Assembly: GCA_001275005.1 (NCBI GenBank) | Contig: JWZX01003212.1 | Location: forward strand, 1 to 50,359 | Direction of reading: 5' to 3' | Length of the DNA stretch: 50,359 bases | From: Chrysochromulina tobinii | Taxonomy: Eukaryota; Haptophyta; Prymnesiales; Chrysochromulinaceae | In this document: in pieces, positions 21,801 through 48,400 of the stretch | How the letters are laid out: each line of letters begins with the position of its first letter | How positions within the stretch are numbered: the stretch's first letter is position 1 | Notes under the pieces: model-generated | What the model saw: only the letters and a program-made list of their open reading frames with translations | Told to the model about the DNA's origin: nothing | The model's database searches: none | Position numbers and translations under genes: made by a program

Positions 21801-24545
21801 CGACCACGCGAATGCGCTCTTCGAGCTCGCTAACGCGCATCTGGGCCGCGCAGATCCCCAAGCCGCGGAGCCCTATTATGTCCGATCTGCGGCAGCGTTC
21901 CGGCGGGTCCTCGCGTCGCCTACGGCACACGCACACGAGAAGCGGAAGGCGGAGTTGCTCCCAACGGTACTCTCCAACTTGGGCAACACGTATCTCGACC
22001 TTCAGCGGGCGCGAGAGGCAATCGCCGTGTATGAGGAAGCGGCCGCCTCACACCCGCCTACCTGCCTCCCATTCAACGGCCTGTCCAACGCCTACGAAGG
22101 GGAAGGGCGATTCCCCGAGGCACTTGCAGCCTCGCGGCGTGCCATCCGGATGCTCCCTTCGACGTGCCACCTCGCCTATTACAACCTGGGGCGCATGCTC
22201 AAGGCGAGCGAGCAGCACATGGAGGCGCCCGCGGCGTACGCAATGGCGGTCGCCATCAAGCCGAGCGACCACCAGTACGTGAACGGCCACGGCACCGCTT
22301 TGCATGCAGCAGGCAGGCTCGAGGAGGCCGTGAAAGCGTACAAGACCGCCACGCAGCTCGCTCCCACGTGGTCCTCGCCCTATCGCAACCTAGGCCTACT
22401 TGAGTATGAGCAAGGTGGCCGCAGCCGGCAGGCCATCGGCTGGTACCGCCAGACGCTTGCTCTGGACCCAACATCGGCCGAGACTTACTGTGACATGGGC
22501 ACGGCGCTGCTGGAGCTCGGCGAACTCGCGCCTGCCATGAAGGAATACAGCCACGCGCTCACTCTCAACCCGTCCAACCCGCTTGCGCATGCAAACCATC
22601 TGTATCTCGCCACCAAGTTGTGTGAGTGGCGGGATCACGAGGCACGGCATGCGACGCTTCGAGGGCACGGCGCCCAACTTCTGGCTGCGACTGCCGCCCG
22701 ACGGCTGCAGCCGCTGCAGCCCGCCCCGTTCCTCTTCCTGCCCCCCTACCACGCCCTCTCGTACGATGGACTGCGCCCCGAAGTGCTCCGGGAGCTCGCC
22801 CTTGCCTACGCCGAGCGCGCCGCCGAGCGCGCGGGCGGTACCGGTACCCGTACCGGTACCGTTACCGGTACGCGCCTGCCGCTCGCGCGCCCGTCGTCTC
22901 TGGACGTGGACGGGGACGTTGCGTCAGTGTCGACAGTTTCGTCTCTGGACGTGGACGGGCGTAGTTACGGCGAGGTGAAGGGCAAGGGCGAAGGCGAGGT
23001 GAATGGTGGTAAGGGCAAGGGCGACCGACGGCTGCGTGTCGGTTACCTGTCCACCGATTTGGGCGAGCACCCCACCTCACACCTGATGCGCTCGTTTTGG
23101 AGGCTGCAGCATGAGCACGGGCGCGTGCGTGCGACTTGCTTCGCGCGCTCGAATGACGGCTCGGAGCAGCGTGCGTTCTTGATGCAGACGTGCGAGGAGT
23201 GGGTCGAGCTCACTGGCTTGTCATGGGCGGCAGCTGCACAGCAGATCCGACAGCGGCGATTGCATCTGCTGGTCGACCTCAACGGCCACTGCGGTCGGCC
23301 CCAATTTGAAATCCTCTCGTTGCGCGCGGCACCCCTGCAGCTCACCTATATGGGCCATCCGGGCACGAGCGGCGCGAGCTACGTGCAGTACGTCCTCACT
23401 GATCCAATCGCCACAGCCCCTCGCGCGCGCACACACTTTTCGGAACATCTTCTCTCGCTGCCGCAGTGGCATGTGACGGACTACCGCTTCTCGCATGCAT
23501 TCAATGCGCGTGGCCCTTCCGACCGGCCGACAGGCTTGGGCGAGCCGCCGAAGGGCGCGCCGCCCGCTGGCCCACGCCGCCCGTGGCCCGAGCACGCGAC
23601 GCGCGCGACGCTTGGCTTGCCTCAAAACGGCTTCGTGCTGGCCACGTTCCTTCAGCTGTACAAGGTCACCCCGCGCGTCTTCGACACGTGGCTCAACGCG
23701 TTGCGCGCCGCACCCATCACAACGCGTCTCTGGCTACTCGAGTTCCCACGCGGCGCGGTAACGAACCTCCTCGGGCACGCGGCAGCGAACGGCATCTCCC
23801 TCCGACGGCTGCTGAGCGCCCCCACAGCGGAGCGCTCGTTCCACCTCGCGCGCGTGGCGTTGGCCGACCTGGTGCTCGACAGTCAGATTGACCTCAGATT
23901 GACCTCAGATTGACCTCAGATTGACCTCAGATTGACCTCAGATTTACCTTAGATGGACCTCAGATGGACCTCAGATTGATCTCAGATGGACCTCAGATTG
24001 ATCTCAGATGGACCTCAGATGGACCTCAGATGGACCTCAGATGGGCCTCAGATTGACCTGGTGCTCGACAATCGGAGCCGTTCCTCTGATGGCCTCAGAT
24101 TGCCTCTGAGTGCCTCAGATTGACTCTGATTGCCGCGGATTGCCTCCCTCACGGCATACAGGTGCTCGATACGGCGCCATACGCGGGCCACACGACGACG
24201 GGCGATGCGCTCTGGATGGGCACGCCTGTGCTGTCGCTGCCGGGTGAGATGATGCAGTCGCGCATCGCCGCGGGCTATGCTGCCAATGCGGGCTGCCCTC
24301 AGCCGCACGCGGACTCGTTGCGTGCATACGAAGCGTACGCGGCCGCCGTGGCCGCGCACCCACAGGTCGCAGATGCGATGCGTACGTGCCTTGCGCGCGG
24401 CCGCTGGACGCACGCCGCCTTCGACACACGCCGCTGGGTGCACGGCTTCGATGAGGGCGTGCGTCTCCTGTGGGAGATTCACCGTTACGGCCTCCAGCCG
24501 ATGCACGTGCTGCTTCCGTCCAGGCACACGATGGGCGGCGGCTGA
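18808..24545 (+). CDS. TPR - GT4-type glycosyltransferase - TPR - O-GlcNAc transferase (GT41) fusion
   Basis: Exon 1 is 18808-23871 and exon 2 is 24162-24545, about 1815 aa. The chosen ATG gives MSCPPNVNPLEWAARQL; the frame is open further upstream but without ATG. Order: TPR repeats (~20-275), Ser/Gly tract (~293-352), GT-B glycosyltransferase like family GT4 (~358-750; VGGSEEAVIMVARELARRGW, ASGFYVFPSDKPETSGVNLM), acidic linker, polyproline (~857-888), second TPR block (~932-1270), then an OGT catalytic region from ~1406. The latter keeps EHPTSH (His1421), YMGHPGTSGASYVQYVLTD, LQLYK (Lys1619) and, across the intron, GHTTTGDALW, matching the catalytic and UDP-binding motifs of OGT. OGT modifies Ser/Thr of nuclear or cytosolic proteins. 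No signal peptide is seen, so cytosolic action is likely. In the GT4 part the second Glu of E-x7-E is Lys657. Confidence 0.85.
19684..19863 (+). repeat. AGC/GGC trinucleotide repeat (poly-Ser/Gly linker)
   Basis: About 180 bases of agc and ggc triplets encode a Ser/Gly linker between the first TPR block and the GT4-type domain. The mRNA strand would be strongly purine/C biased and expansion-prone, with the frame preserved. Confidence 0.9.
21376..21469 (+). repeat. (gccacc)n hexanucleotide repeat (polyproline)
   Basis: About 15 copies of the hexamer encode a run of roughly 30 prolines between the GT4-type domain and the second TPR block. It likely acts as a stiff spacer; copy number is probably polymorphic and hard to assemble. 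Confidence 0.9.
23872..24161 (+). mobile_element. Introner-like intron, family A copy 1 (composite)
   Basis: A 290-nt GT-AG intron inside the OGT catalytic domain. It begins GTGCTCGACAGTCAG and the next exon begins GTGCTCGATACGG, an 8-nt exact duplication. The body is an 11-nt tandem (agattgacctc and variants with atgg) followed by cctctgatggcctcagattg units. The 3' end is GATTGCCTCCCTCA...CATACAG, shared with the introns at 41301 and 47767. The exon-boundary sequence gacctggtgctcgaca occurs again inside at 24055-24070. Splicing gives LADLVLDTAPYAGHTTTGD, the expected continuous OGT motif. Confidence 0.9.
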
Positions 24546-25545
24546 CGAAACTTACGAAGAGCCGTCGCCGGAGTGTGGGCGCCGGCGCAAGCGGTGAGGC
24601 GACCCCGACCCTTGGGCCACGGTACAGACAACAGAGAGCGGATCGGCAATAGGTGCCCGAATGTGCGTAGGGGCTAGGCCAAGGGCGCTTTAGTCCCGAT
24701 CGACTTCGGTCTTCGCGCCCGGCCGTGGGCCGCCCACAGCCGCACCAGACAGGCGACGAGGCGAGTAGTAGTCCTGTAGTTTTAGTGTGTTAGCTGTTAC
24801 AAACTGTAGTTACTTGTCAGTTACAGCTGTTACGGTACGGTCCGTGTTGGACGTCGTTGCGTGCGGTGCGAGTATAGTCGCGTCCCAGATTTGAGATTTT
24901 AATGAATGCATGTTTTAATTGCCAGACAATCAATTACCCGCGACCGTGCCTGGTACGCAGCTGTACGCACACACCAGTTACAGTTGTCTCGACCGGACGG
25001 GTGCGTCGGTGCGACGACGCGGTACGAGCGTCGACATCGTCTTCCGACATTCTTCTCCAGCTCTTTCAGTTCCTTCTCCGTCTTCAAAGGAGTAAAAATA
25101 GCGCGGTTGCCGGACCAGGAGCTGCCTGCGCTGTGAAATAATTCACACTATGAATCCCTTAGATATCGTATGCACCGCACGTCAGTCGGGAACCGTCCTT
25201 TGAGACGGTGGTGTGGTGAGCGCGGTGCTGGGACCGCGACGAAACTGACTTACCGGTACTGACTGTCGCGAGATCGTACCAGCGTGGTGCGTGTTAACGC
25301 GTATATCCTACGGTCGGGTCCGGGGGCTCCCCGGGTGCGGGTCGCTCTACTTCGAGAGGTGCGTCCTCGCTCTCGAGGGTCGCTCCGGTTTAATTTTTCA
25401 GCGTAACTATCTATAACTGTTGCGTGTTGCCGTATACGCCGCGTGCCACCTTTCCGCGCACTTGTCGTACTGCGGCATGTCGACACATACAAGTCCGTCA
25501 AAACACTTCGTTCTCTACAGCCATTGTCCACAGCTCGTCCACAGC
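24546..25545. other. 1-kb non-coding region between convergent genes
   Basis: 3' flanks of the glycosyltransferase (+) and the next gene (-). Base composition is mixed, with two copies of agctgttac near 24790-24835 in a tract of tgttac/gttac words. No ORF, tRNA or element boundary can be supported. Confidence 0.4.
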
Positions 25546-26508
25546 TCAGAGACACGTTGCGCTCAAGGACGGGCTCATGACCCTGGCAATCAGTGCATCC
25601 TCCTCATCCAACCCCGCGCCCACCTTCGGATACATGTATGTTTGCCCTTGCGCCCCTCGCCGAGCACGAGGTGACGCACTACAATCAGAACGGTCCGCTC
25701 GGTGACTTCCAGAAGGCTCTTGCCGAGAGCGTTGCGCCCGAGGGAGTGTCAGAGGGAGTGGGCCAACCTGCTGCTGGTGCTGCGAGCCAGCCTGCTGCTG
25801 GTGCTGCGAGCCAGCCTGCTGCTGCGGGCGAGCAGGCTGCTGCGAGTCTGCCGGCTGCTTGGAGGATGAGGATGCGGAAGGAAGTCGTGGATTTGGCTTG
25901 TGCAGAGGCACGTGCTTGCCCGTCGCCGAGTCATGCTTGCGTGCTGGCTCTAAGACCATCTGACCATCCTTGACTACCACTTCAGCCACTGTCTTCTGTG
26001 TCCAGCACGCCTCCTGCGCCTTTGAGAAGCTCGCTTCCATGATGAACCCGCTCGAGCTGAAGCCAGCCGCGCGCATTGTGGGTCCCGCGCAAGTCGACGT
26101 ATCAGCCGCCGCGCCAGCCGTCAAGCCAGCTTCATGCTGTCGCTCTGCCAACCGCGTCGTCACGAGCGCCTTGTCGGCCTCGTCCTTGGGCAGCGCCATG
26201 TAGAAGAAGGAGAGCTGTTCATTATTGAGTCCCTTCGAGGCATGCATCCCCTTCCCCTTGGCCGCGTCCGCTGTGCGCTGGTGTTCTCGCCGCGGCGCTG
26301 GTCGCAAAACGGGCCGTGCAGACCACTCCGATAAGAGACGCAGCCGCACGCTGAGCGCCTCTGATGGTGTTGCGGACCGGCCCCTCGTATCGCGATGGTG
26401 AGCGACAAAATCAGCGTTAGAAAACTCGTTGTCCATGATGGCCATCGCGAGCCCGCGCTGTGCGGGTGTGAGCAGAAAGAAGTCGCCCATCCGATTCTCA
26501 TCAGGCAT
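25546..26508 (-). CDS. Unrecognised 320-aa protein with Gln-rich repeat
   Basis: ATG at 26508. The N-terminal ~200 residues look globular and mixed (FFLLTPAQRGLAMAIMDNEF, LSFFYMALPKDEADKALVTT). The C-terminal third is low complexity, with SSSSKQPADSQQPARPQQQ and three copies of QQQAGSQH. No signal peptide, membrane span or known motif was found. GC content is lower than in most neighbours. It could be a lineage-specific gene or a relic of a mobile element; there is no flanking repeat to decide. Confidence 0.5.
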   Translation of the reverse strand: MPDENRMGDFFLLTPAQRGLAMAIMDNEFSNADFVAHHRDTRGRSATPSEALSVRLRLLSEWSARPVLRPAPRREHQRTADAAKGKGMHASKGLNNEQLSFFYMALPKDEADKALVTTRLAERQHEAGLTAGAAADTSTCAGPTMRAAGFSSSGFIMEASFSKAQEACWTQKTVAEVVVKDGQMVLEPARKHDSATGKHVPLHKPNPRLPSASSSSKQPADSQQPARPQQQAGSQHQQQAGSQHQQQVGPLPLTLPRAQRSRQEPSGSHRADRSDCSASPRARRGAQGQTYMYPKVGAGLDEEDALIARVMSPSLSATCL

Positions 26509-27071
26509 TTGTCCTTTTCAAGAACGGTTCTGACGGTTCTGTCTTGCATGCTGGCCTGTGACTATGCGGCGCAATATGCAGGCACTGGCTCGTTGGCGAC
26601 GCTCAATGGGGGCGTGTAGCGGACACTATGTAGGATGGGCTTTCTAAACAAAAACATGAAAACCCCCCGATCCCGATCCGGGGAGACCCGATTACATTCA
26701 TTGATTGGATTGTAGTGAAGTCCGGGGCGGATGTACGATGTTGCGATATTCAATATGGCCATATTCGGTTGAAATGCGCCAACGGTACTTAATCTCATGA
26801 CTATGTTAACTTCGCATATAATGTGCCCCGGGGCCGAGTCACCGATCTCAAAAGCACACGACACCATCAACACAAAGACCTCGGCAGAAGGGGACGACCG
26901 AATCGCTCCACGACATGTCCTCCATGATCATTATCGCACAGACTGAGGGCGCGTCCAGCACTTGGCTCCAGGCAATAGGTCCGGTCGTCGAGCGCGGTCC
27001 CAACCTTATGCCACGTGTGCGTTGTCTTGAAAGGCGCAACTCACTTACATCGTCACATGGTCATAGCGTCC
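26509..27071. other. Intergenic region, relatively AT-rich
   Basis: 563 bases between minus-strand genes. The stretch 26620-26830 is notably AT-richer than the rest of the window and has a palindromic ccccgatcccgatccgggg-like block at 26670 and a TATA-like catataatg at about 26815. No gene is seen. Confidence 0.4.
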
Positions 27072-27833
27072 TCAGATTAGAGGCTCGTCCTCCGGTGGTG
27101 GTGGCGGCGGCGGCGGGGGCTCCTCCAGGGCGACCAGTGGTGGCGGCGGCGGCGGCGGCGCGGGATCCTCCGAGCGCGAAGAAAAGCCGTCAGACGGCTC
27201 CGTCCTAGTGGAGTCGACAGCGAAGGTCGTCATGACTGGCGCGACGACCGGCTGAATCATGATCGCGTCGAGAGCGAACATGGAGTAGCTCATCGCCTGG
27301 CCCTTCTTAAACGAGCCCACCTTGCCCAACACTGGAGAGCCTGCTGAGAACGGAGATCCTGGTGAGGGCTGCTTGGGCTTCGAAGCACCTACCGCATCAT
27401 AGTTCTCTCCGACTAAGCTGGGCTCCGTGCCGAATCCGACCTTTGCCCGGCCGCCCGACGGCGACCGCTGCTGGGCAGCCCGAGCAGCCGCAATCTTGTC
27501 GAGAGCGTGCACCCAAAGTTTGATCTGACAAGCATCGCCAGGGACGCAGAACTCGCTGACGGGCCTCAACAGATCAGAGTTCGTCTGGTCCTCTCCGTTG
27601 ATCTGGATGTGCGTGCACGCTACCTGGATGTTGAGGTCTTCCATCATTTTCTGGAGGAAGGGCTCAAGGAGTGCCTGAGCGATTGGCTGCTTGAGAGCCC
27701 CGCCGGACAGTTGGCAACCAATAGCAAGATCCTGGTCACCAGCGATTGTAAGCTCGAAGCTCTGCGCACCCATCGAGGAGACTAATCCATCCTTGCGGCC
27801 GAAAGACAGTGCGCTGCTGAGCGCGTTGAGCAT
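27072..27833 (-). CDS. Unrecognised 253-aa protein with Pro-rich C-terminus
   Basis: ATG at 27833. Residues 1-110 look folded (SFELTIAGDQDLAIGCQLSG, LLEPFLQKMMEDLNIQVACT, PGDACQIKLWVHALDKIAAA). The middle is Ser/Pro/Gly rich with possible phospho-sites (KQPSPGSPFSAGSPVLG), then FALDAIMIQPVVAPVMTTFA, and two runs of Pro and acidic residues end the protein. No membrane span or known catalytic motif. It may be one exon of a longer gene, because the N-terminus lacks a clear leader. Confidence 0.55.
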   Translation of the reverse strand: MLNALSSALSFGRKDGLVSSMGAQSFELTIAGDQDLAIGCQLSGGALKQPIAQALLEPFLQKMMEDLNIQVACTHIQINGEDQTNSDLLRPVSEFCVPGDACQIKLWVHALDKIAAARAAQQRSPSGGRAKVGFGTEPSLVGENYDAVGASKPKQPSPGSPFSAGSPVLGKVGSFKKGQAMSYSMFALDAIMIQPVVAPVMTTFAVDSTRTEPSDGFSSRSEDPAPPPPPPPLVALEEPPPPPPPPPEDEPLI

Positions 27834-28270
27834 TTCTGCTTCTGTCTTATGCTGCTCCTCTCGAGCGGTCTCTGTCTAGAGATGCCCCTGATTCGAGGCG
27901 CGGCTTGGACTCGGCGCACACGCCGTCGGCGATACATAGTTTCCCCAATAGGGTCTCCCTAATGAAACAGTCATTTCGCCCAAACAACGCAACACGCCTC
28001 GACCCGTCGACCGGACCTCCCTAGGACCTCCCTCAGGGGTCCATCCGCACATGCACAACCGGACCCTCCGGCCTCCGCAGTCCGCACATGCACAACCCCA
28101 TTTGAAACCTGGAGCCATGCTCATCACCACACCTCTGAGCAGGCGATATGATATAGCTGAGATTAAGATTGACCATTGTTGATCTCCAGTTCATGGGGGA
28201 CAAGGAAAGAATCTACAGCGTCAGTAAGCATGCCCAATGAGCATATCCATTGAGCATAAGGAAAGCGCAC
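27834..28270. other. Intergenic region with a 17-nt direct repeat
   Basis: 437 bases between minus-strand genes. The 17-mer tccgcacatgcacaacc occurs at 28044-28060 and again at 28081-28097. It lies within about 270 bases upstream of the gene starting at 27833, so it could be a promoter element. Nothing coding is seen. Confidence 0.45.
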
Positions 28271-29701
28271 TCAGTTGCCAAGAAGCTTGGGAACCCCGAG
28301 CAAGTCGGAGATCTCTTCCGTCAGCTGGTCGGCCGTCGCCGTGGGGTAGCAACGACAGACGTGAGCTCCCCCCGCCGCAGACCAGTACGAGCTGCTTGTG
28401 TATATCGCCAGCAGCGAGGATGTAGGGATCGCCTGCTCGGGGTTCGCGATAAAGGCGGCTGCTGCTTCGGAGTCGCGCACGAGAAAGGTGGTCTTTGCGT
28501 ACTCAACCGCGGTGCCCGGTCCCTCGAACACATCAACGGCGGTCATAGCCGTACAGTCAGAGCACGCCGGCGCCAGCGGCGTGACGATCACGTCGGGCAC
28601 CGCCAAAGAGGTTAGAAACGCGAGCAAAAACGCGATCGCGAAGAAGAGCAGAAGGACAGAGAACGAGCTGCGGTGGCGCACGGGAGAGCTCGAAGACGTC
28701 GATGCGGACGACTGTGGCATCCTCGCCGCTCTCGGCCTTGGGGCGATCTCAGTGGTGATATCGGCAGTCTCGATGATCTCGGGGTCACTCGGTTTGACGC
28801 TTGAATTGAGTGGAGCACTCGACTTGAGGATCGGCTCTTCTTCGGCTGCAACTGCTTCCGGCAGCGTCTCCCCCTCGACGGCGGCTACTTCCGGCAGCGT
28901 CTCACCCTCGACGGGTGCACTGTGCAGTTGCAGCGTGCATGGCGGGAGCGGTGGCTGCGGACACTCCGATGCCGGCTGGTCAGCTGTCTGCGCCAGAGGA
29001 GCCATGAGCGTGGACACGTTGGCAAGAGTCGAGGTTGGCTCCGCGCTTGGCGGCACCTCGAGATCCGCTTTTTCGATGGCTGGGGCCTCGTCGGGCGGTA
29101 CGGGCAGTGCAACCGCCTGATTTTCCTCCTGGCTCACTTCCATGCACTCGTACATATAGGCCCGAAGTTCTGGACGAAGGAAGACTTTTTCCATAAGGTC
29201 GAGCTCAGCCGCAGCTGGAGCAGCCACCGTGGTGGTCTCCTCGGGCTTGGTGGCCACCGGATCAGCTTCCAGGGAGTTGCCCGTAGAATCAGCAACACCC
29301 ACTACGCTTCCTGGGAGGTTTCGATCGTCGCCACTCTGCAGCATCTCGTCGAGAGTTTTCGTTGTGGGTGAGCTCACGATTGAAACTGGGCTGTCAGTGG
29401 GACCGGTCTTCGGCTCTGGAGTCTTGTTTTGCATGCCATTCTCGCCTGATGGCGTGGACGGCTCGGATGCATCGAATGCAGCGGAACAGCTCGAAGCTGC
29501 CTTGGGCTTTTTGGTCGGAGAGAATGAGTTCAAGACCCTTCGTGTCATGCTTGTTTTCTTTGGCGATGGCGTCGCTGCCTCCATCTCCGATCCTCCAGAG
29601 GTCGGCTTAGAGGTCGGCTCCGAGGCTTGCATCTGTGGGTTCTTCCGCGCGAAGCTAAGCGACCGAGCCGCTTTCGCCCACGACGATCGTGGGGTAGCCA
29701 T
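28271..29701 (-). CDS. Unrecognised single-span membrane protein with long disordered N-terminus
   Basis: The likely start is the ATG at 29701 (MATPRSSWAKAARSLSFARK); the frame extends about 18 codons further. About 350 residues are Ser/Pro/Glu-rich and probably disordered, with two GETLPE(V/A)(A/V)A repeats. One membrane span follows (FSVLLLFFAIAFLLAFLTSL), and a ~100-residue C-terminal domain with several Cys (CSDCTAM, HVCRCYP). A tail-proximal span with a Cys-bearing lumenal or outer domain suggests a type II membrane protein. No family is recognised. Confidence 0.6.
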   Translation of the reverse strand: MATPRSSWAKAARSLSFARKNPQMQASEPTSKPTSGGSEMEAATPSPKKTSMTRRVLNSFSPTKKPKAASSCSAAFDASEPSTPSGENGMQNKTPEPKTGPTDSPVSIVSSPTTKTLDEMLQSGDDRNLPGSVVGVADSTGNSLEADPVATKPEETTTVAAPAAAELDLMEKVFLRPELRAYMYECMEVSQEENQAVALPVPPDEAPAIEKADLEVPPSAEPTSTLANVSTLMAPLAQTADQPASECPQPPLPPCTLQLHSAPVEGETLPEVAAVEGETLPEAVAAEEEPILKSSAPLNSSVKPSDPEIIETADITTEIAPRPRAARMPQSSASTSSSSPVRHRSSFSVLLLFFAIAFLLAFLTSLAVPDVIVTPLAPACSDCTAMTAVDVFEGPGTAVEYAKTTFLVRDSEAAAAFIANPEQAIPTSSLLAIYTSSSYWSAAGGAHVCRCYPTATADQLTEEISDLLGVPKLLGN

Positions 29702-37062: not shown

Positions 37063-40000
37063 CTACGACAGTTGCTCACAGCTCAACACCTCATTGCTCG
37101 CGAGTTCGATGCTAAAGGGCCCCGTCTGGCCGGCCCCAAAGGTAGAAGGCACGAGCACGAGCGTGACGGGTCGAGGCTCGTGCAGCTCGAGCGCACAGCT
37201 CGCCTCGAGCGTGGGCGCGAAGCAGGTCTCGTGCACGAGGCGAGCGTGCGACTTGCTGCGTAGAGGCACGCGGCGCGCAGCACCGGGCGGACTGGCACCG
37301 GCACCGGTGCTCGGGCCGCGAAGCAAGTAGAAGCCTACCATGCTGTCCACCGGTTTGTCAAGCATCGGAAGGGTCCACTCAGCCTCGGGGCGCCGCAGCA
37401 CGATGTGCAGGCTCGCGGCGGCGCCCCGAGCGCCAGCCGCGCCGGCAACGCCGACGGTGATGGCGTATTGCGGATTGGTGCCCCACGTCTCTTCCAAATG
37501 ACAGCCGCCCGCGTTCGGCGCGCCGCCACCCGCATGGCTGCCGCGGCTGGCGCGGCTGGCGCGGCTGCTCCCGGAGGCCACTGACGAGGTCGAGTCCGCC
37601 TTGAGGCGCGCGGGGGCGGGGCCCATCCCCGATTGAGCGGCCGATTCGGACGGCCGGGGGCCACCGGGGGGGAGCGGCTTGCCATGCCAACTGCCCTTGA
37701 TGGTCAGGGAGTACGCCTCGTGCGCGAGCGGCACGCACGAGACAGGGGTGTCCGAGAGTACAGTGAGACGGAAGCGGCCGGGCTGACCAGGCTCAAGCGT
37801 GGACGGTACGAGGACCCGTGGCACAGTCGCTCGGAGCGCTATCAGGCCACTCGCGAGGCTCTCGGACACGTACCTGTGGGGACGCGGCGCCGTGGTGAGC
37901 ACGTGCATGCAAGGCAGGGCATCAGGTGGCCATCAAGATACCGGGCGGCGCCGTGGTGAGCACGTGCATGCGAGGCAGGTCATCAGGTGGCAATCACGAG
38001 ACCACTCGCGAGGCTTTCCGCTCATGTACCCAATGGACGCCTCGAGAGTGTCGGCCGACGCTGTCAGCATGCCACGCAAACTCCGAGCCGCCGCGTGCGC
38101 AGCGGCGATCGCCTCCGGGGTGGCGTGCGCGGCAGGCGGCCACACTTCTCGCGGCATCGGCGACAGTCCTCGTGGATTGAGGCCTACGCGGGCCACCGAT
38201 GCCGAACAACTCGAGCTCCTCGTCGGTCTTGGAGAGCGAAGGATGCGAGAGCACTGGCAGCAGCTGCCCCGACGCACCGCGCACGTTACCGCTCAGCCCA
38301 GCCAACACCACCACGCCGCCGGCGCCGCCGGCGCCGCCGCTAGGGGCAGCTGCGGCGCGTAGCACCTGCACCCCAATGGCTCGGGCGCGTTCGAATGGAG
38401 CTGCCAGGTCGTCCAGCATCACCACGTCGTCTTTCGCCTCCTCCGGCGCCTCCTCATTCGTCGCGGCCGGTGCCTCCGCACTAGAATGTGCCCAACACGG
38501 CGCGCTCGAAGGTGCGCCGTCAGCAGCTGCCGCGACGGAGGCCGCCTCCACCGTGGCGCGCGTCGGTGAGGCGCCCGGGCGCTCGACGAGTCGTTCTAGC
38601 ACTACGATCGCCCGCCCGTCGACTGCCGCCCCTAGGCCGTATTGCGGGTTGACCGCCCGCGAGACCGACGGCCAGCTGCCGCCATCAGAGCGCCGCGCGG
38701 CGGCCGAGTCTGCCGCCATCTGAGTGTCTGCCGCGGCGCTGGGCCCCACGCCCCGCCAGCATCCGATGAGGCTCGTGCGGTGGAGCGGCGCGATCGGCGT
38801 GAGCGTGACTGGAGCGTCACTCCATAACCGAAGGAAGAAACCGCCGCCGACCGCTACCTCCGCGGTGCTCGCAACCGCCGCCGCCGCCGCCGACGCTGCC
38901 GCCGACGCATCACCCGTGCCCTCTGCGCGTGAGGTGCCCATCTCGGCGCCCAATACGGCGCCCATCTCGGCGCCCGTCGGCTTCGTCACTTCGGCGTACC
39001 ACCACGGCACGAGCACAAAGCTCGCGGCCTCGGGAGCGAGCCAGCGCACGCTCACGTCACGGCTGAGCTGCGGGCCGGCTTGGGCCGCAAGCTGCTCCGC
39101 GTCCAGCGTCCACACGCGCGCGCCCGTGCCGCCTCCGCTTGTATTCGATGAGTTCCTGCCGGCATGCAGGACACTCAGAGCGAGCACGCGGGGTTTGCGC
39201 CCTGCCTGGCCGAGGCTCGCGAAGATCAGTGCCTTGCCCTTACAGCTCAGCTGCCACTGCGGGTTGGTGCACCAGGTGGGGGCGGTGGGCACGCCGCCCG
39301 AAAGTGTCGGCACGCGCAGCCGGTGCTGCAGCCAGCAGCTCGCCTCCAAGCCGCTCAGCACGGCGTCCTCATGGGCGGCCGGATGGAGCAAGGGCCTTGG
39401 AGGTGCCTCGGGCAGCGTGCGGCACAGAAGGACCTTGTCGAAGAGCTTGAGGAAGATTTCGAGGCGAACCCACGCGTCGCCCGCATCCACCTCGCCCACG
39501 TCCTCGTCCGCGCCGCGCGCCGCCGCCCCATCGCCACCGCCCGATTTGACTGCGGCCGTGTCACGGATGAGGATCGAGAGGCCAGCCGCCTGATTGCTCA
39601 CCTCGAGGATGGCGTACGCGTGATTGGCCGGGATGTGCGGCGCGTCGTCGGGCTCGCCCTTGGCGCGCCCGCGCCGCGTGCAGCACATGAGCGCACGCTG
39701 CTCGTACGCCTTCTTGAGCGACGTGCCCAGAAGCGACTGCGCCTCGGCGCCTTCGTCTGTCAGTCGGAGTTGCTCGCACACGCCGCCAGTCAGGTCGACG
39801 AGAGCCTCTATGCTCCGCCCACCCTCGAGCGCGGCGTACGAGCCGTGCAGCTTGGCAAAGGCCTTCTCCACCAGCGCCGCCCAGCCAGCGCCGCTCGTGC
39901 CGCAAAAGAGCGGCCTGCCAGAGGCGTCACACGGTAGCAACGTGTCGATCACCACCTCCCGCCACCAGCCGTTCGGGCACAGGCGGACGCGAACGCGGCC

Positions 40001-40288: not shown

Positions 40289-40649
40289 GATGGCGTTGTG
40301 GCGGGCGTCAATTCCGTCGACGTTCGGCGACTGTTCGGTTTCAGGGTTTCGCGCTCGTGGGGCCGTGCGTGCGCTGGAGGCGAGCGGGGGCGCCGTCGGT
40401 CGTTTGGGGTTATAAATTCAGGTAATGTCTGAACCGCGCAACCACCGGCACCGGCGAGTGCGCCCTGGCGCACGCCTCTTGCTCTTGGACCAAATGTTCC
40501 ACGTGACCCAGTGTTCAGACCGTGTTGTGGTTGTGTCCGGCCCAGCACAAGCCGGCGCCCAGCAAGCAGCTAGAGCCCGCGCGCCGGCATTTCACGGCCA
40601 GTGGCGGCGAGGAGACACGTCTGGCGCGCTGTGACGGGCAGAGCAGTGC
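40289..40649. other. Intergenic region upstream of the calpain-like gene
   Basis: 361 bases between two minus-strand genes. A tataaatt at 40411-40418 reads aatttata on the coding strand, about 125 bases upstream of the calpain ATG, and could be a TATA box. Otherwise nothing is seen. Confidence 0.4.
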
Positions 40650-42658
40650 TCACGAGTAACAGTCCCAAGTGGAAAGGTCGATGCCTTCGGCCTTGCACCA
40701 CTTGTCCATCCAGTACCACGCCTCGGGGGTGGGGATGGTGCGTGGATGCGGCCCCTCGGCTTGACGGATGATGTTCTCGTCGCGCATGTGCCACACCTCC
40801 ATCAGGCACAAGTGCTCGGCTTTGGTAGCGCCCGCCGCCTGGCGCGTGAGGCTCCAGAAGCTCGAGACACGTGCCCGCGCGCGAGAGAGGTACTTGGATT
40901 GCGAGCGGCGCGAGTCCTCGAGGCAGTTGCAGAGCTGCTCGCCTTCGTAAAAGAGGCGTGAGAGCGAGAGGATCTCGGCGATGCGTACCGTCGCCTTGCG
41001 CGAGCCCGGCTCACCCTCGCCTCCCAATTCGTACGTGCCGTCGTACGGCACTTTGACAGCCGTGCCTGCCGGGATGGTCGCCTCCAACTCAAAGAGCCCC
41101 TTGAGGCCACGGGGATTGGGCTGAAAGGCCTCATCATACTCGGCCGGCAGACCGCCCGCGCCGTCGGCGGCCGCGGGCGGCATGTTCGACGCGACGTAAG
41201 CTTCGAAGGCGGCTCCCACCGTTTTCGGGGTGCGCCCTACGCACGTGTAGCTCGGGTTGAGCTGGCGCATCTCGGCAAAAAAGTCGAGGTAAGAACGCAC
41301 CTGATGAGGGACGCAATCAGAGACGACCATCAGACGCAATCAGAGACGGCACTCAGACGCACTCAGACGCCCTCAGGCGCCTCTCGGCGAACAGGTGTGC
41401 AAGTGAGGAGCAAGTAGGAGCGCACGGTGTACGGATCCGTGAGCGCTTCCTGGTGGCGAACGGTCCAATCGAGCATGACAAGAGCAAACTCTTCGATGTC
41501 CGCCCGCCCGAGAGTGCTGCCGAGCCGACTCTCGCACGCGGCATCGGCCACCCAATCCGCGCCGCCTAAGCTGGCCACCTGCGCCCGCCGCAGCGCGTGC
41601 AGCGGGCTGCCGCTGCTGCCGCCGCTGCTGCCGCCGCTGCTGCCGCCGCTGCTGCCGCCGCTGCTGCCGCCGCTGCCGCTGCTGCGCTCGTCCGCCTCCT
41701 CCTCTGTTGCTTCATATTCGTCGTCCACGAGGCCCATGACGCCACTCCCAGCCTGCAATGCTGCTGGAGCGGAGACCCGAGCAGGTGCGCCCTCTCCGAT
41801 GCGGCCGGCGGGGAGCTGCACGAAGTGCTTCGCAATCGTCTTGGTGATGCTCGGCGCGACCGCGGCTCGCATGCCGTCGAGCACTGAAGCGCCTCGCCCG
41901 ACCTCCGCGTGTACGTGCAGGAAGGCCTTCGAGATCCGGTGCGCTCCTTCGGACACCGGGCTACCGTCTCGGTAGGTCAGCGCGCCATGCAAGGCGGGCG
42001 GCACGTCCCACTTCTCAAGCAAGTGCACGGTGAGGCTGCGCAGCATCTCCTCGCATGAGGTCGCCTCTGCTGGATGCTGCCATCCGTCCAGTGGACGCAC
42101 CCACTTGTCCGCGGAGGTCCAAGCCGCCAGCCGTGCGAGCGGCAGGCAGATGGCCATGTCAGGCGTGCAGAGCAACGGCACGCGCTCGGTGCAAGCGTCA
42201 ACCAGTGCATTGAGAGATGGCTGATTGCGCTCGTACTCGGCCTCAAGCTCGGCCTGCGAGTAGGCCTGCGCTGGCGGGGGTGAGCTTGGCCCCATCCAGC
42301 CGACGGGCGACGAAAAGGGCTGAAGGCCTTTGTCGCCAGACAGGGTGAGCGCGCATGAGAGGATGTACCAACGCTCTGTCGCCTCCCGAAAGCCTGCCAT
42401 GTTGTACTCCAGAGCGGCTGCGGCGGCCGCGGCGGCCGCGGCGGCCGTGGCGGCCGCATCGTCGGCGGCCGCATCCATGCGGTGATGAGGGATGCATCGT
42501 GCAACCGAATGCCTCGGCGTCGGTGGATGCGCGCGCGGCGCGGCGGCGGCGAGCATGAGTGCGAGCATGGCGCCGCCAAGGGGGGTACCCCGCCTTTTGC
42601 TTTTCACAGAATACACGTTCAACAAATGGGTCTCAGCCGAGAGGACGGCGAGATCCAT
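40650..42658 (-). CDS. PcfJ-like domain protein
   Basis: Exon 1 is 42658-41426 and exon 2 is 41300-40650; both junctions are phase 0 and the protein is about 627 aa. The N-terminus (MLALMLAAAAPRAHPPT from an inner Met) could be a targeting leader; the exact start is uncertain. A poly-Ala run, a helical middle and a GGSSGGSS repeat follow. The spliced C-terminus reads EALTDPYT-VRSYLDFFAEMRQL, then LFYEGEQLCNCLEDSRRSQS, ARARVSSFWSLTR, EHLCLMEVWHM and IIRQAEGPHPRTIPTPEAW. This order (NC(L/V) with a Tyr/Arg-rich turn, F-S-L, L-x-x-(M/L)-E-(V/L), R-Q-x-x-G-P) matches the PcfJ-like family known from bacterial plasmids and phages and from algal genomes. Its biochemical role is not established. Confidence 0.6.
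41301..41425 (-). mobile_element. Introner-like intron, family A copy 2
   Basis: A 125-nt GT-AG intron. It starts GTGCGCTCCTACTTG and the following exon starts GTGCGTTCTTACCTC, an imperfect ~12-nt duplication. The body has gcgtctgagtgcgtctgag and gatggtcgtctctgattgcg units and ends TCTGATTGCGTCCCTCATCAG minus the first base of that block. The end is almost identical to the intron at 47767-47894. The intron carries a stop in the exon-1 frame; removing it joins DPYT to VRSYLDFF. Confidence 0.85.
41604..41684 (-). repeat. Trinucleotide repeat encoding GGS linker
   Basis: gccgctgct-type units on the + strand encode repeated Gly-Gly-Ser-Ser in the PcfJ-like protein. It is frame-neutral and probably a flexible linker. 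Confidence 0.85.
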
Positions 42659-43008
42659 CCTCCTCGGCCTCGGGAGCTGCAGTGGGAGAAATCATGCGGC
42701 GGGCGGCCTTTTCGCTTTTGACGTTCGGACCTGCTCCTGCATTCAATTCCTACACTGTGTGAAAGAGATCGCTTTCAACTAGCGCGAATGGTTTTCTACA
42801 CGTTCCCATGCACGGTCCTCATCGACAAGGTCGGGGCGGCGTCGGCTTGAGCCGTCATTCATAGAGGCTCCTCGCAGTGCCCCGGGTGCCCGTCCCTAGG
42901 TGAAGGACCGCGGAGGGCGGCCGGCCGGCCGCGAAAGTCGGTGGTTCTATCTCGACACGCTGACCGTATACGTGCTGCTGCTGCTGCTTCTGTTGCTGCT
43001 CACGCAGC
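42659..43008. other. Intergenic region
   Basis: 350 bases between two minus-strand genes. A short ctg-repeat (42973-43000) lies just beyond the stop codon of the small coiled-coil gene. No other feature is seen. Confidence 0.4.
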
Positions 43009-43520
43009 TCACTCGGCGACTGTTGACATCGTGGCTGTCGATTTCATGCTCTTGGCCATCGATTTGGCTGTGGCCGCCGACTTAACGCTCATCGTGTACT
43101 CCGAGCCGCCCATCGCATCCAGCTGCGTCGACACCTCGTTCAGTGCCTCCTCGAGCTCCTTCTTGAGCTCCTTTAGCACTTGCTGCGCGCGCGCGCGCGA
43201 GGCCGATAGGATATGCTCAGCTCGGGACGCTTGCTCCGCAGCCGCACCATGCGTGCAACATGGGTGTGCGGCAGTGGTGCACGCGAACGCACCTTACGCG
43301 GCGGTCGTAGCATGGAGACGGGCGTCGGTTGTAGGTCGCATAGGTCGGCCACCTTATTCTTAAGCTTCTCGAGCCTCGCGTGCTCCTGCGAGTTGAGCGG
43401 GAAGACAGGGCGCGGCGCAAATGGCGCATCCTCGGCATGCTGCTGGCTCCACGAGAGCTTAGACTTGCCCTCGCGGCGGATGGTCTCGTTGTACACTTGC
43501 GTCTCGAAGGTAGTCGTCAT
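43009..43520 (-). CDS. Small basic coiled-coil protein
   Basis: ATG at 43520. The first frame codes MTTTFETQVYNETIRREGKS, FAPRPVFPLNSQEHARLEKL, then becomes implausible. A downstream frame codes EQASRAEHILSASRARAQQV, LKELKKELEEALNEVSTQLD, AMGGSEYTMSVKSAATAKSM and stops at 43009. A 59-nt GT-AG intron (43234-43292; donor aag|gtgcgttcg, acceptor gcggag|caag) joins them in phase 0, giving about 150 aa. The predicted helix has strong heptads, and the Ser/Lys/Met-rich tail is unusual. A cytoskeletal or flagellar role is a guess. The intron does not resemble families A or B. The gene is divergent from the kinase gene, 240 bases away. Confidence 0.6.
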
Positions 43521-43760
43521 GACGGCCTCGGAGCTGGCGAGCGACGACGCGAGCTTGGACCTAGGTCAGCGCGTCCGGCTGCTGGGAACGGCCAACCAAG
43601 CGCGCCGGTACGGCGCCTTCATACGAGGGGCAAACGATTATACGCACAGAGAGCCCGCGTCATGCCTGATGTTGCCTACATGTATATGCGCGCACGGCGA
43701 ATGTGATTTCGACCCTTTTCTTCGTCGTCGATCATCGTTCACACGACCGTCCAACCACCC
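43521..43760. promoter_or_regulatory. Divergent promoter region
   Basis: 240 bases between the start codons of the coiled-coil gene (-) and the AGC kinase gene (+). No TATA or repeated motif is evident; called by position. Confidence 0.35.
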
Positions 43761-44951
43761 ATGCTTCCCCCCTTCCGCCGGCTCGCTACCGCCCTCGGCC
43801 GCGCCCTGCCCTCCAAGGCCCTCAGCCGCGCACTGCCCTCAAAGAAAGCAGGGAGCTCCGAAACTCCGACGGTAGCCGTCACGCCGCCGCTGCCCGAGCC
43901 TGAGGTCGAGATCCCCAGGGACATAGCAGGCGTGAGCCTCGATGATTTTGACCTGCTCAAAGTGCTCGGCAAGGGCGGCTTTGGCAAGGTGATGCTCGTG
44001 CGCAAGAAGAATACGAGCGATTTTTACGCGATGAAGGTGCTCAAAAAGGAGGCTGTCATCAGACGCAACCAGGTGGCGCACACCAAGACCGAGACACACA
44101 TCCTAAAGCAGATCCGGCATCCTTTCCTGACTCACATGGCGTACGCCTTCCAGAGCGAAGGCAAGCTGTACATGGTCCTCAACTACCTGCCGGGCGGCGA
44201 ACTGTTCTATCAGCTCAAGCGCGAGGGGCGCTTCTCCATCGAACGCGTCCGGCTCTACACGGCTGAAATCGGCATGGGATTGGGGCACCTACATTCGCTC
44301 GACATGATCTACCGCGACCTCAAGCCAGAGAATATCCTGCTGGACGAGGTCGGCCACGTGTGCCTGACCGACTTTGGTCTGTCCAAGGAGATGATCAGCA
44401 CGCCTAACGCGGCGCACACCTTCTGCGGCACGCCCGAGTACATCGCGCCCGAGATCTTGCAGGGCGTGGGCCATGGCAAGGCCGTTGACTGGTGGTCGCT
44501 CGGCACCCTCGTGTTCGAAATGCTCACGGGGCTTCCGCCCTTTTACAGCCGCAACATTAACCAGATGTACGAAATGATCCTAAGAGCCGAGCTGCGCTGC
44601 CCCACCTACCTGCCACCCGACATCAAGGACTTGATTGAGAAGCTGCTCGTCCGCGACCCGCTGCGCCGGCTCGGCTCGGGCCAGGGAGACCTCGCAGAGC
44701 TTGAGAGGCACCCGTTCTTCCAGCTGCTCGATTTCAGCAAGGTCTTCAACCGCGAGTACACGCCCATCTACAAGCCCAGCCTTGGATGCGTCACCGACGT
44801 CGCCAACTTCGACCCCACCTTCACCAGAGAGCACGCCGTCGACTCACTCGTCGAGCCGAGCCATCAAGCAGGCCAACCAAACCATTTTGAGGGGTTCTCG
44901 TACCGGGCGAGCTATGGGGCGAGCGTGCGCAATCTCTTAGAACCGTCTTAG
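43761..44951 (+). CDS. AGC-family Ser/Thr protein kinase (Akt/S6K/SGK-like)
   Basis: ATG at 43761, 396 aa, no intron. After a ~60-residue basic, Ala/Pro-rich leader the kinase domain has all key motifs: GKGGFGKV (P-loop, ~71-78), YAMKVLKK (Lys92), MIYRDLKPENILL (Asp186; Tyr replaces the His of HRD, as in AGC kinases), LTDFGLSKE (Asp204) and HTFCGTPEYIAPE with activation-loop Thr220. The AGC C-tail follows, with FNREYTPIYKP, VANFDPTFTREHAVDS and a hydrophobic motif FEGFSYR whose Ser380 would be the TORC2/TORC1-type site. Activation by PDK1-like phosphorylation of Thr220 is expected from the family. No PH domain is present, which favours S6K/SGK or a protist AGC branch over Akt. Confidence 0.9.
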   Translation: MLPPFRRLATALGRALPSKALSRALPSKKAGSSETPTVAVTPPLPEPEVEIPRDIAGVSLDDFDLLKVLGKGGFGKVMLVRKKNTSDFYAMKVLKKEAVIRRNQVAHTKTETHILKQIRHPFLTHMAYAFQSEGKLYMVLNYLPGGELFYQLKREGRFSIERVRLYTAEIGMGLGHLHSLDMIYRDLKPENILLDEVGHVCLTDFGLSKEMISTPNAAHTFCGTPEYIAPEILQGVGHGKAVDWWSLGTLVFEMLTGLPPFYSRNINQMYEMILRAELRCPTYLPPDIKDLIEKLLVRDPLRRLGSGQGDLAELERHPFFQLLDFSKVFNREYTPIYKPSLGCVTDVANFDPTFTREHAVDSLVEPSHQAGQPNHFEGFSYRASYGASVRNLLEPS

Positions 44952-45496
44952 AAACGTGTGCGGTGAGTTCGGTTCTTGTAAATTTATGTCGTGTCAGAAC
45001 TGCGGCACATCAGAACTCGCCCGCACATCACACGATATGTCTTGGGCGATTACATTCGGCATGGGATGCCGCCAACGCGGCTCCGCACGCACCCGCGCGG
45101 GGATCTGTGAATGTGACCACACTGGACCCCTCAAGACCCGCCGCGACGTATACGTGCCTTCATGCCACGCTGCACTGAGGTCTGCTGCCGAGGGCGATAC
45201 GCATGTACTCACGTCACACCTCCTCGCGCTCGTCTCGAGCTCTCGGCGCGCACGCGCACGCTCCCCTGTGCCCCTGGCTGGCTGGGTGGCTCTCTGGCCG
45301 CCATCCTGCTCCCCACACGTCACAACCCCTTCTCTGACTCGCTGTTGTCTCTCGCAAGGTTCGCTGGCCCCGGTCCCCTCGCCACGAAAAGCCCCGAGCG
45401 CACGGCCCATGCTGAAGAGCGTGGCGGCAGCGCGCCGCCGCGCTCCGATGGCGCACAGACGCCCCTCAGTGAGCGCGGCTGCAAGCGCCCCGGGTC
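44952..45496. other. Non-coding region between convergent genes
   Basis: 545 bases of 3' flank of the kinase gene and of the large EF-hand gene. Short frames here are shadows. A tgtaaatttatg patch at about 44977 could be a polyadenylation area for the kinase transcript. Confidence 0.4.
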
Positions 45497-48400
45497 CTAC
45501 CGCTGATACGGCGGCACCAGCGCGTACGGGTCAGCGGCGGCCGCCGCCACAGCGCCGCCAGTCGCATGCGCTGGCGTGGTCGGCTTGCGGGCGAGTCGGC
45601 GCGCCTCGTCGCGCCCGAGGGTCCGACCCTCTGCCTCCGTCGGGCCGCCGCGGGTGGGCGAGCCTGCAGTCGGAGGACGAGGTCCGCTCAGCTGTGTCGG
45701 CTGGTAGCCTGGAGGGTACGCCGAGAAGCCGCTGCCGCCCAGCGCCGAGGAGGAGCCGCTCATAGGGGGCGGATAGCTCGAGGTGGCGGGACGGCCGTAT
45801 GGGTACGCCGCGGGCACCGGCTGCAGCTGCTGCGAGGGCGTGTACGAGCTCGGTGCCTCGAAGGCCGCGCCCGTGCCCGCCGCGCCTCCGCTGGCCGAGG
45901 ACCAGCTGGCGCCGGCGGGGCCGCCCGCGCCGGCGGAGGAGATGGCATGTGATATGCGTTGGAACTGGCTGAAGTCGAGCTGGGTCCGTGGCTGATCCTG
46001 CAGCGACGCGAAGATGGCAAGGGCGACGCCGCCAGTAGTGTCCACGCCCGCGCGCATGAGAGCGGGGCGCACATCTGCAACGGGGATGGTGCCCACACCA
46101 CGTGTGTCGAATGCCCGGAACGCTGCTCGAAGCGAAGCGACCTGGGCCGAGGGTGCGACGCCCTGCAGCGCGCGCAGCTTACGCAGCAGCCGCGCGAATT
46201 CTGCAAGGTCGAGCCGGCCGTCCGTGTCGCGATCGAACTCATGCAGCACCGAGATGGCCTGCGCCGAGTCGGCCTGCAGATGAAGGTCCTTGAGGGCCTG
46301 TCGAAGCTCGCGGGACGTGAGGAAACCATTCCTTTTTTGGTCGTGCCGATCGAAGATCACCTTGGCTTCCATGAGCTCGGCCACGGCCACGCTGTCACCA
46401 CCAGACCGGCCGCCGCCGCCGCCGCCGATGCCGCCGCCGCTGCCGCCGCCGCCGCTACCAGCGCCGCCACCCGGCAGGGCTTTGGTCGCTTCGCTCTCCA
46501 GAGTGGCGACGAGGGCGCGGAACTCACCCAGCCGCAGAGCGCCGTCGCCGTCGGCGTCCGCATCGGCAAAGTGCGCAAGGGTCTTGGGGGTCACCTCCAT
46601 GCCGAGGGAGCGCAGCGCCGCGGCCACCTCTTTCATCGACAGGTAGCCCGAGCCATCGCGGTCAAACTTGTCGAAGGCCTTATCGAGGGTTGCCATGCCT
46701 AGACTGCCCGACGCGGGCGCGCCCGACCTACCGCCGCCTTTTGTGCCGCCCTTGGCGCCCAAGGAAGGAGCAGCGGGCTGCAAGTTGAGGTAGACCGAGG
46801 AGGCGGGCGTGGCCTGGGACGAACGGTACGGGTCGTTGGGATTCGGGGCCGCCGCTGGGGCGGGGTACGAAGTAGACGAAGGCGCGGGGCGCGTGGCGCC
46901 GCCGTCGTAGCCCTTGATGTAACTGCCGTTGCCAGCCTCGTACTTGACGCCGGCACCGCTCGAGGCGCCTGGGCCGCCGGACAGAGACAGGTCGCGCGGC
47001 TCGAAACGCGAGGGCCGGAGCCCCGCCGCCGCCGGCCGTGGCGCCGCTCAAGTACTCGTACGCATCTCTCGTGTCCGGGCGCGAGGCCGGCGGCGAGTAC
47101 TGTGGCGGTGGCGAGTACCGGGCGCCGCCAGCGCCGCCGATGGCGCTCGCAAAGACCGCGGGCGGCGCGCGGCGCGGCGCCGAGACGAGCGGATGCTCGC
47201 GCGCCTCCCGCTCTCCCAATTGCTCGTCGACTTCGAACCGAAGCACCATGCGCATCTTGAGAGGCAGCGGCGTGGGCGGCGGGCCGCCGGGCGCGCGCGC
47301 GTTGACGAACTCGTACATGCACGGCCCGGGGAAGGACCAAGCGAGCCCACCCTTGACGGCGACCGCCTTCGCATGCGGCGCCGCCTCCACGTTGAAGTAC
47401 GCCCCCGAGTCGAAGATGGTGGCGTGCTCGACGCGCGTCTGCCCATGTGCATCGCGCGCGCTCATCACGATGCAGTGTCGGCTGTGTGAGTCGGCGTTCG
47501 CGGGCAGCGTGATCTCCGTAATCTCGAGCCGGCCGTGAGCGTCCACCCAAAACGAGTAAGGTCGCTCCGGCTCGAGTCTCTCGAGGGCCACGCGCTTGGC
47601 AAAGAGCACCGCGCCGTTCACGCCGCCCCCCGCGCCCGCGCCATCGGCGGCGCCGCCGGCGCCGCCGTACAAAGCGATGGCGCCCTTGCGCTGGGCCGTG
47701 GGCGAGCCACGGCCATCGAGCGCGAGCGAGCGGCGCGCCGGCGGGTTGTCAAATTGGCCGAGGTACCTAATGAGGGAGGCAATCAGAGACCATCAGAGGC
47801 CATCAGAGGCCATCAGAGGCCCTCAGAGGCCCTCAGAGGCCCTCAGAGACCATCAGAGGCCATCAGAGGCCCTCAGAGGCAGTCGAAGAGTTACCGGTAG
47901 AGCTTCTCGAACTCGGCGAGCGACAGCTTGCCGTCATTGTTGGAGTTGGCCGTGTGGAAGCCCTTCACGTCAAACTCGCTTGCGACGACGCCCAGCTTGC
48001 GCAGCCCCGGAAGCAACTCGGCCTGCGTGAGCGCGCCGTCGCCGTTGGCATCGATGGATGTGAACGCCTTGCGCACGGCGATGAACGGCTTGACGGCTGC
48101 GCTCGCACGCACCGTCAGGGTGATGGTGCCCATAGGACCGCCGTCCGCGCTCGAGAGGAGCGGAAACTCCTCCTTGCGGAGGTCGTGCCCACGCGCGAGG
48201 TCGATCTCAGCGTATGCGAGCTCGGCCGGGGGCGCGAGGGAGCCGCCTCCCCGCCCGGCATGCAACATCACGCGCAGCGGCAACGACGGTTCCAGGGCGA
48301 CGACGCTGCGGTCGGCCGCCTCCTGCGCGCGCCGGTGAAGGTCGATGACCATGCGATTGAACTGGCCGATGTCGATCTTGCCGTCCGCCGCGTCGCTGTA

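Follow-up and report, generated by a model that had tools for sequence, protein, structure and literature searches.

How do introns in unrelated genes come to share one sequence? The question is raised by three introns in a 50,359-bp contig of the haptophyte Chrysochromulina tobinii (JWZX01003212.1, assembly GCA_001275005.1; the whole contig, C2053 of the genome searched, is called the window below), which a preliminary description had attributed to a mobile intron-generating element with a minisatellite-like build. The positions given there for these introns, referred to as family A, are correct (Table 1); all three run from GT to AG, all three (3/3) are sense to their host gene, and their removal restores the reading frame by joining open reading frames (ORFs). 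The common 3' end, GATTGCCTCCCTCA at no more than one mismatch, matches the 50-kb window solely in these introns. As a full explanation, we consider it probable that the introns are introners of unusual build, namely mobile 3' half-introns. A mobile element is the best reading because of the motif matches in the genome, the GT that follows most exact ends, the repeats that start at the acceptor, and the restored frames, all described below. Judging from the sequence patterns, it is highly likely that the element gives the 3' half of the intron, while the duplicated exon gives its front and its donor.

The names proposed for the host genes held in part. A Pfam search of the host proteins found Glyco_transf_41 in the gene labeled OGT and EF-hand in the third gene, but the label "PcfJ-like" for the second gene did not stand (0 Pfam families at E ≤ 0.001). 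Each of the intron lengths is 2 modulo 3. Without splicing, frames through the middle of the intron are open over at most 47 aa in copy 1 (OGT) and 9 aa in copy 3; in copy 2 (41301–41425), one frame stays open over 442 aa, so that the case for splicing there rests on the frame shift. At the OGT junction, ADL/VLDTAPYAGHTT, an ungapped alignment to the solved O-GlcNAc transferases 5a01 and 6q4m runs across the splice site.

The whole genome (53,154,812 bases in 2,253 contigs) was then searched for the shared 3' end. The 18-mer CTCTGATTGCCTCCCTCA, at up to 2 mismatches, gave 2,662 matches on both strands (1282 + 1380), and the reversed pattern, used as a control, gave none (0 + 0). The exact 20-mer end CTGATTGCCTCCCTCATCAG occurs 643 times (335 + 308), and GT follows directly in 425 (219 + 206; 66%). 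These matches are not an intron count because tandem arrays give several matches per place. A search for other repeats flanking AG/GT returned 231 places, 42 of them with the family A end, and revealed a second family, B, which is also present in the window and is absent from the preliminary description; many of the other 189 places, among those listed, look like tandem-array artefacts and were rejected. Family B has the core GCATGCAAGTGCTCACCACGGCGCC and the end CCCCACAG. Its 19-base core (up to 2 mismatches) gave 2,193 matches (1061 + 1132; control 0 + 1), and 449 (217 + 232) of its 521 complete 3' halves (259 + 262) are followed by GT.

Flanking direct repeats, on which the preliminary description is silent, were examined in a sample of 248 kb, consisting of the window and of loci nearly all picked by motif hits. 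The search took the base after AG as the start and looked upstream for identical sequence (match +1, mismatch −2, cut-off score 11), with upstream regions swapped between loci as the control; this control was adopted because a first one, with positions drawn at random within these repeat-rich loci, itself scored often (62/504 vs 90/158 at score 9). Loci L001–L008 stand outside the counts, having been taken as overlapping or repeating later loci, although some do not. The sample holds 158 family A ends, edge cases excluded, or 113 once 45 array-internal ends are left out; the family A pattern detects two of the three window copies. Acceptor-adjacent repeats at score 11 were found at 50 of these 113 ends, compared with 18 of 2260 swapped combinations. 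For family B, counted on cores with a nearby ACAG (37 ends, 33 after leaving out 4), the corresponding numbers are 20/33 and 0/660. Nineteen of 50 listed repeats start directly behind the end of another copy. Six of 50 listed repeats start with GC (e.g., L011, minus strand, 8235; L018, minus strand, 7939; L020; L021), which makes GC-AG introns possible there.

The repeats are long and variable. In 28 non-array family A copies, they form a continuous spread of 11 to 36 bp, and in 26 of 65 family B cores, they measure 11 to 43 bp (a few being tandem artefacts), the lower bound being the cut-off in both cases; one family B copy, on contig C37, has a 35-bp repeat with 1 mismatch. Among introns below 140 bp, the repeat extends leftward past the acceptor by 0 to 3 bases in 24/26 A and 16/23 B copies, and the repeat boundary is hence taken to be the splice site. 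The first repeat comprises the GT donor and the front of the intron; the element comprises a branch-point-like motif (CTGAT in family A and CTCAC in family B, which we take to be such), a pyrimidine tract, and AG. Repeat and element lengths are inversely correlated in family B (ρ = −0.79, n = 23) and in both families together (ρ = −0.53, n = 49), introns above 140 bp (2/28 A and 3/26 B) being left out. Intron length in this set is 60 to 100 bp in 41/49 and below 60 bp in 2/49, and we read the compensation as the effect of a lower limit to intron length on duplications whose lengths vary broadly.

The repeats begin at donor-like sites. In 34 clean copies starting with GT, position −1 is G in 25 (background 26.5%) and AG stands ahead of GT in 13 (background 5.4%), while 28 have a purine at +3 and 19 a G at +5; all four counts exceed the exon background, which was taken from GTs in the three window genes. 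Selection for functional donors accounts for this pattern, and the inserting machinery may contribute a preference of its own.

Splicing at these sites was assessed by comparing the best coding frames of the 150 bases on each side of the intron. In 27 family A copies whose donor, GT or GC, could be resolved, the frames agree in 23 when spliced and in 8 when unspliced, where one third is expected; in 19 copies with other starts or unresolved array donors, agreement was 9/19. A second selection of family A copies gave 15, 14, and 15 of 20 in agreement at three flank lengths. Protein evidence comes from a Lon gene (locus L014) with three family A copies. Its spliced product reads VLMLDEIEKLGR...ALLEVLDPAQN...VDLSKVLFLATANATD..., and with splicing at the duplicated sites, residues 2 to 89 align ungapped to mitochondrial Lon 7ksl. 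One copy stands at the start of this aligned stretch, directly behind another intron's acceptor, and one lies fully inside it (E/VLDP); for the third (K/VLFL), the donor GTAACG of the adjoining older stretch was picked because it joins the frame. Insertion of a family A element into an exon thus appears to create an intron, with the coding sequence restored by the predicted splicing. Several A-type introns of this Lon gene fall in a 0.6-kb stretch (minus strand, 2930–3530 of the locus), and two of the copies begin exactly behind an existing acceptor.

The description of a mobile element as having a minisatellite-like build did not survive in full: the array is not an essential part since compact family A copies are approximately 30 to 70 bp long, family B is mostly without an array, and one array differs by 72 bp between two contigs. 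Apart from those 72 bp, which are six 12-bp units of an A-type body, the two contigs (C101 and C235) agree at 4414 of 4418 aligned bases (99.9%), a second alignment gap being merely where one stretch ends, and the intron body is therefore regarded as a labile variable-number tandem repeat (VNTR). The idea that the two contigs differ by an introner was rejected, the difference being VNTR; this single 4.4-kb pair has no insertion difference. The near-identity of the stretches (C101:7000–11421 and C235:2250–6800; L039 and L040) suggests retained alleles or strain variants. Long repeats accompany stacked arrays of repeat plus element at L021, L022, L024, and L028.

At the level of the element ends, the two sides of the intron behave differently. 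Shared intron sequence runs to the acceptor; on the donor side, it stops at the duplicated exon, typically 11 to 43 bp inside the donor. Across loci, 102 pairs of family A copies (left score at least 30) share 0 to 9 bases past AG, largely donor-like GT. Of 130 pairs compared without regard to locus, 52 have more than 14 matching bases there, 48 of them neighbors within 700 bases and 4 within L023, an array of 22-bp units. Sharing between introns at unrelated positions therefore seems to reach the boundary at the acceptor and to approach it loosely at the donor. The 5' end of family A is loose: CTGAY begins within −3 to +1 of the element start in 10/28 copies (background 8/2000 window positions) and is farther off or missing in 18/28. 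For family B, 8/26 copies have GCATGC no more than 3 bases from the element start. A duplication of fixed length was not found among the 28 A and 26 B copies measured. The signature found, a constant 3' end, a variable 5' end, and a variable duplication, is that of target-primed (LINE/SINE-like) retroelements.

Copying between places leaves further traces. A 41-bp family B element, TGCATGC...CCCCACAG, is identical in C37, where it carries the 35-bp repeat, and in C421; these are not alleles, as only 44 bp (the element plus GTA) are in common. In the Lon gene, CCGATTAC, a piece of host Lon sequence, lies within the repeat of one copy, and two other copies, 0.3 to 0.4 kb away, carry all of it or its tail. 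A B copy at L018 contains TGATGGAGCG, which belongs to the repeat of a second B copy, and L016 copies carry GTGCTCCTCACC, which is host sequence at L024. The presumed source is in each case the locus with the carried sequence in its exon, from which it would have passed to the daughter. In RNA structure prediction, most shuffles of two compact A copies and of one window intron fold worse than the real sequence, which is not so for two B elements and a further window intron. The 7- to 8-bp ends of the two compact A copies, CTGATGA and TCATCAG, pair as a hairpin (z = −1.97 and −2.30), and none of the family B elements folded and read has inverted ends.

In the mechanism we propose, an element of typically 30 to 70 bp would bring the back half of an intron, that is, a branch-point-like motif, a pyrimidine tract, and CAG, and would insert in an exon at a donor-like site, most often G/GTRNG. 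The break would have its strands cut approximately 10 to 45 bases apart, and filling of the ends would duplicate the exon stretch between them; the upstream duplicate would become the new intron front with its GT donor, and the exon would continue in the downstream duplicate, so that splicing from this GT to the AG of the element would restore the original mRNA. The template may be the excised intron RNA, which ends exactly at CAG: a reverse transcriptase starting from the nick would copy it into the target, and the 3' boundary would thereby be fixed while the 5' boundary and the repeat length stay variable. Later, the body would gain and lose 10- to 12-bp units in the manner of a VNTR, and stacked arrays would arise from exchange between long repeats. 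We infer spliceosomal removal, the staggered cut, and the RNA template. The constant 3' end, the loose 5' end, the spread of duplications, and the carried upstream sequence fit target-primed copying of intron RNA; the copying of excised intron RNA into the target is nonetheless held tentatively, at somewhat less than an even chance. The wider proposition, that nuclear spliceosomal introns move as RNA by nick-primed reverse transcription into donor-like exon sites, with the duplication becoming the front of the daughter intron, is more doubtful still. RVT_1 was matched 26 times in the genome; a connection to the elements was neither sought nor seen.

The chief rival of RNA copying is break repair. 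Here, no dedicated mobile machinery would be at work: staggered breaks in exons would be filled through template switching or end joining that draws on the plentiful 3' ends of introns, and only those fills that place AG beside a GT duplicate would survive. Variable repeats, the loose 5' boundaries (10/28 A and 8/26 B copies with the motif in place), and local copies carrying source flank all suit this explanation, as does the case of Daphnia, where 4- to 12-bp repeats at gained introns were ascribed to staggered breaks (PMC4202315; this paper and those cited below are used in excerpt). Yet most of the repeats here are longer than those of Daphnia, and thousands of matches to two sharp-ended 3' halves do not resemble random filler, an argument limited by survivor bias; on balance, we regard break repair as unlikely, though it deserves serious attention.

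A nonautonomous DNA transposon, like a miniature inverted-repeat transposable element and mobilized in trans by a transposase, as other introners are proposed to be, would account for the hairpin-pairing ends of the two compact A copies and for one L016 copy that looks like a composite moved by its outer ends. Cut-and-paste transposases, however, make a duplication of set length, and the spread of about 11 to 43 bp disfavors such an enzyme; with the loose 5' boundary of family A and the B elements read without inverted ends, this makes the transposon improbable. The last alternative is that old introns were secondarily colonized by one minisatellite or transposable element and not created by it. 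The body is indeed a VNTR, and 19/50 repeats lie directly behind another copy's end, but similarity that reaches the acceptor exactly, duplicated flanks that start at the splice site, and conserved OGT and Lon blocks split by introns leave this explanation with hardly any probability.

Several observations weigh against mobile half-introns copied through RNA. The exact family A end is without a following GT in 218/643 cases, some being array-internal units, and no score-11 repeat was found at 63/113 A ends and 13/33 B ends, where it has either decayed or never formed. In the window introns themselves, the repeats span a mere 10, 12, and 7 bp and have decayed (1, 2, and 1 mismatches, respectively), and their prefix scores of 8, 6, and 4 are all below the cut-off of 11; the strong flank evidence is in other genome copies, not in these three introns. 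Length compensation is missing in family A alone (ρ = −0.15, p = 0.46, n = 26). Only 10/27 copies of the frame test are stop-free across 300 spliced bases (1 when unspliced), probably because other introns are close by, and the frame test is not significant for family B (7, 5, and 5 of 13 at three flank lengths). Family B keeps GTGCTCACCACGGCG and CCCACAG, with length and letters between them varying widely across the genome, and this divergence between GGCGCC and CCCACAG is not accounted for by simple copying; the middle stretch is copied all the same, since local duplicates and the C37/C421 pair have it in common. As to the RNA step, it is not established because the fixed 3' boundary may reflect survivor bias, and the local 5' transductions are equally expected from DNA template switching.

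We class these elements as introners, as a variant with a long, variable exon duplication. In the tandem-duplication model of intron gain, the duplicate supplies both splice sites, whereas here the acceptor and the branch-point-like motif come from the insert. A donor from the duplicated exon is common to our elements and to introns gained when an AGGT-bearing exon stretch is duplicated in tandem (PMC4974935, PMC3443670). The 2022 survey by Gozashti et al. (PMC9860276) describes most introners as consistent with DNA transposition and cites duplications of 3 to 9 bp for earlier ones; its pipeline excludes most microsatellites evolving in preexisting introns, so that array-bodied copies may have been passed over. 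The introners of Symbiodinium microadriaticum in that survey resemble ours in being dispersed similar introns with the acceptor in the element, the donor in the upstream duplicate, and a restored mRNA, but have a 4-bp duplication and inverted ends, whereas ours have a variable duplication of 11 to 43 bp that makes up a large part of the intron, and the family B elements read are without inverted ends. Newly gained Daphnia introns likewise have variable direct repeats at opposite ends, with internal repeats when young; unlike them (4–12 bp, with a high-copy, sharp-ended family not found in the excerpts), long repeats and high-copy families occur here (PMC4202315). Fungal introner-like elements and Micromonas introner elements (PMC3443670) are also of high copy and co-linear with transcription, and an RNA or transcript route was proposed for them, but they are described without transposable-element marks such as the long flanking duplications seen here. 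Amoebophrya introners (PMC7789003) share high copy number and direct repeats across exon/intron borders and differ in their 3- to 5-nt repeats, 8- to 20-nt inverted repeats, and noncanonical sites, ours being mainly GT-AG. In 213 introns of several classes, direct repeats of 4 to 30 bp (mean 11.4, 71–100% similarity) were reported (PMC11782384); their length range overlaps with ours, but they were not tied to a mobile family in that excerpt. Introners with long variable duplications were not found in the excerpts of open-licence literature, although such families may stand in subscription papers or supplementary tables, and the excerpts of PMC12768974 and PMC4580454 hold nothing decisive on these families.

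The bulk origin of new spliceosomal introns is a long-standing question. In the genome studied here, two families that differ in their 3' halves follow a single design, in which half an intron is joined to a long, variable stretch of duplicated exon. Recent activity is suggested by near-intact duplications and by the 41-bp element that is identical in unrelated stretches, in which case one could look directly for the intermediate, whether RNA or DNA. The length compensation of family B may allow the minimum spliceable intron length to be read from genome data. If the RNA route is true, it would amount to a working retro-intron cycle in a free-living alga, open to any intron with a 3' half that serves well as a template; the single architecture of two families with different 3' halves would then be explained.

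Table 1. Positions of family A and family B features in the window (TRF, Tandem Repeats Finder).
Feature	Position	Strand	Basis or remark
Family A intron in OGT gene, 290 bp, GT..AG	23872..24161	+	Spliced ORF 1084 aa, OGT alignment
Upstream exon-duplication copy GTGCTCGACA, holds donor GT	23872..23881	+	Partner GTGCTCGATA at 24162–24171
11-bp tandem array TCAGATTGACC, 16 copies, body of unit 1	23883..24059	+	TRF
Third GTGCTCGACA copy within OGT intron	24061..24070	+	Sequence
10-bp array after the 11-bp array, OGT intron	24083..24146	+	TRF
Conserved 3' end GATTGCCTCCCTCA...CAG, acceptor AG	24138..24161	+	Sequence, window motif search
Family A intron, 125 bp, gene without Pfam match	41301..41425	-	Spliced ORF 638 aa
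Upstream exon duplication GTGCGCTCCTAC	41414..41425	-	Partner GTGCGTTCTTAC at 41289–41300, 10/12 identical
Family A intron, 128 bp, directly behind EF-hand pair	47767..47894	-	Spliced ORF 1147 aa; Pfam EF-hand
Upstream duplication GTAACTC, weak	47888..47894	-	Partner GTACCTC at 47760–47766, 6/7 identical
10-bp tandem array, CCTCTGATGG-type, intron body	47776..47880	-	TRF
Family B candidate, 22-bp duplication GTACCGCCCTGGCCGCCTGTGT + 50-bp element ending CCCCACAG	11508..11579	+	
Downstream copy of 22-bp duplication, 1 mismatch	11580..11601	+	
Two tandem 61-bp family B units (..GCATGCACGTGCTCACCACGGCGCC..), then GTCCCCACAG/GT	37884..38003	-	TRF

The OGT intron looks compound, with two stacked units, that is, a double insertion, a feature absent from the preliminary description, the stacked second insertion being suggested by the third copy of GTGCTCGACA; the duplication pair of this intron is identical over bases 1 to 8, with its one mismatch in the full 10. 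In the family B candidate of the window, the 72 bp are 0 modulo 3 and open both spliced and unspliced, so that the frame cannot test splicing there. The tandem family B units on the minus strand have A-like units of the CTGATGACC type in front of them, and similar A-B junctions occur in L018, L020, and L026; these junctions hint that modules A and B recombine or have a common ancestry. Longer tandem repeats of the window have units of 33, 45, and 150 bp (10194–10329, 11130–11268, and 1492–2156).

Rfam at gathering thresholds gave no match in the window. The sequence GATTGCCTCCCTCATCAG had 0 exact matches in viral_contigs, and a prokaryote home for it was rejected, since single matches in 6 contigs of a prokaryote genome collection were taken as chance. 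Elsewhere in the genome, the chlorophyll-binding family has 58 matches. The best matches of a light-harvesting protein at L037 are 9jj8/9uen (318 bits) and 8z11 (299 bits), then 9uh3 (269 bits) and 9kz9 (180 bits). These best matches make a haptophyte host likely: according to an excerpt of PMC12716418, 9UEN is from Emiliania huxleyi and 8Z11 from Isochrysis galbana.

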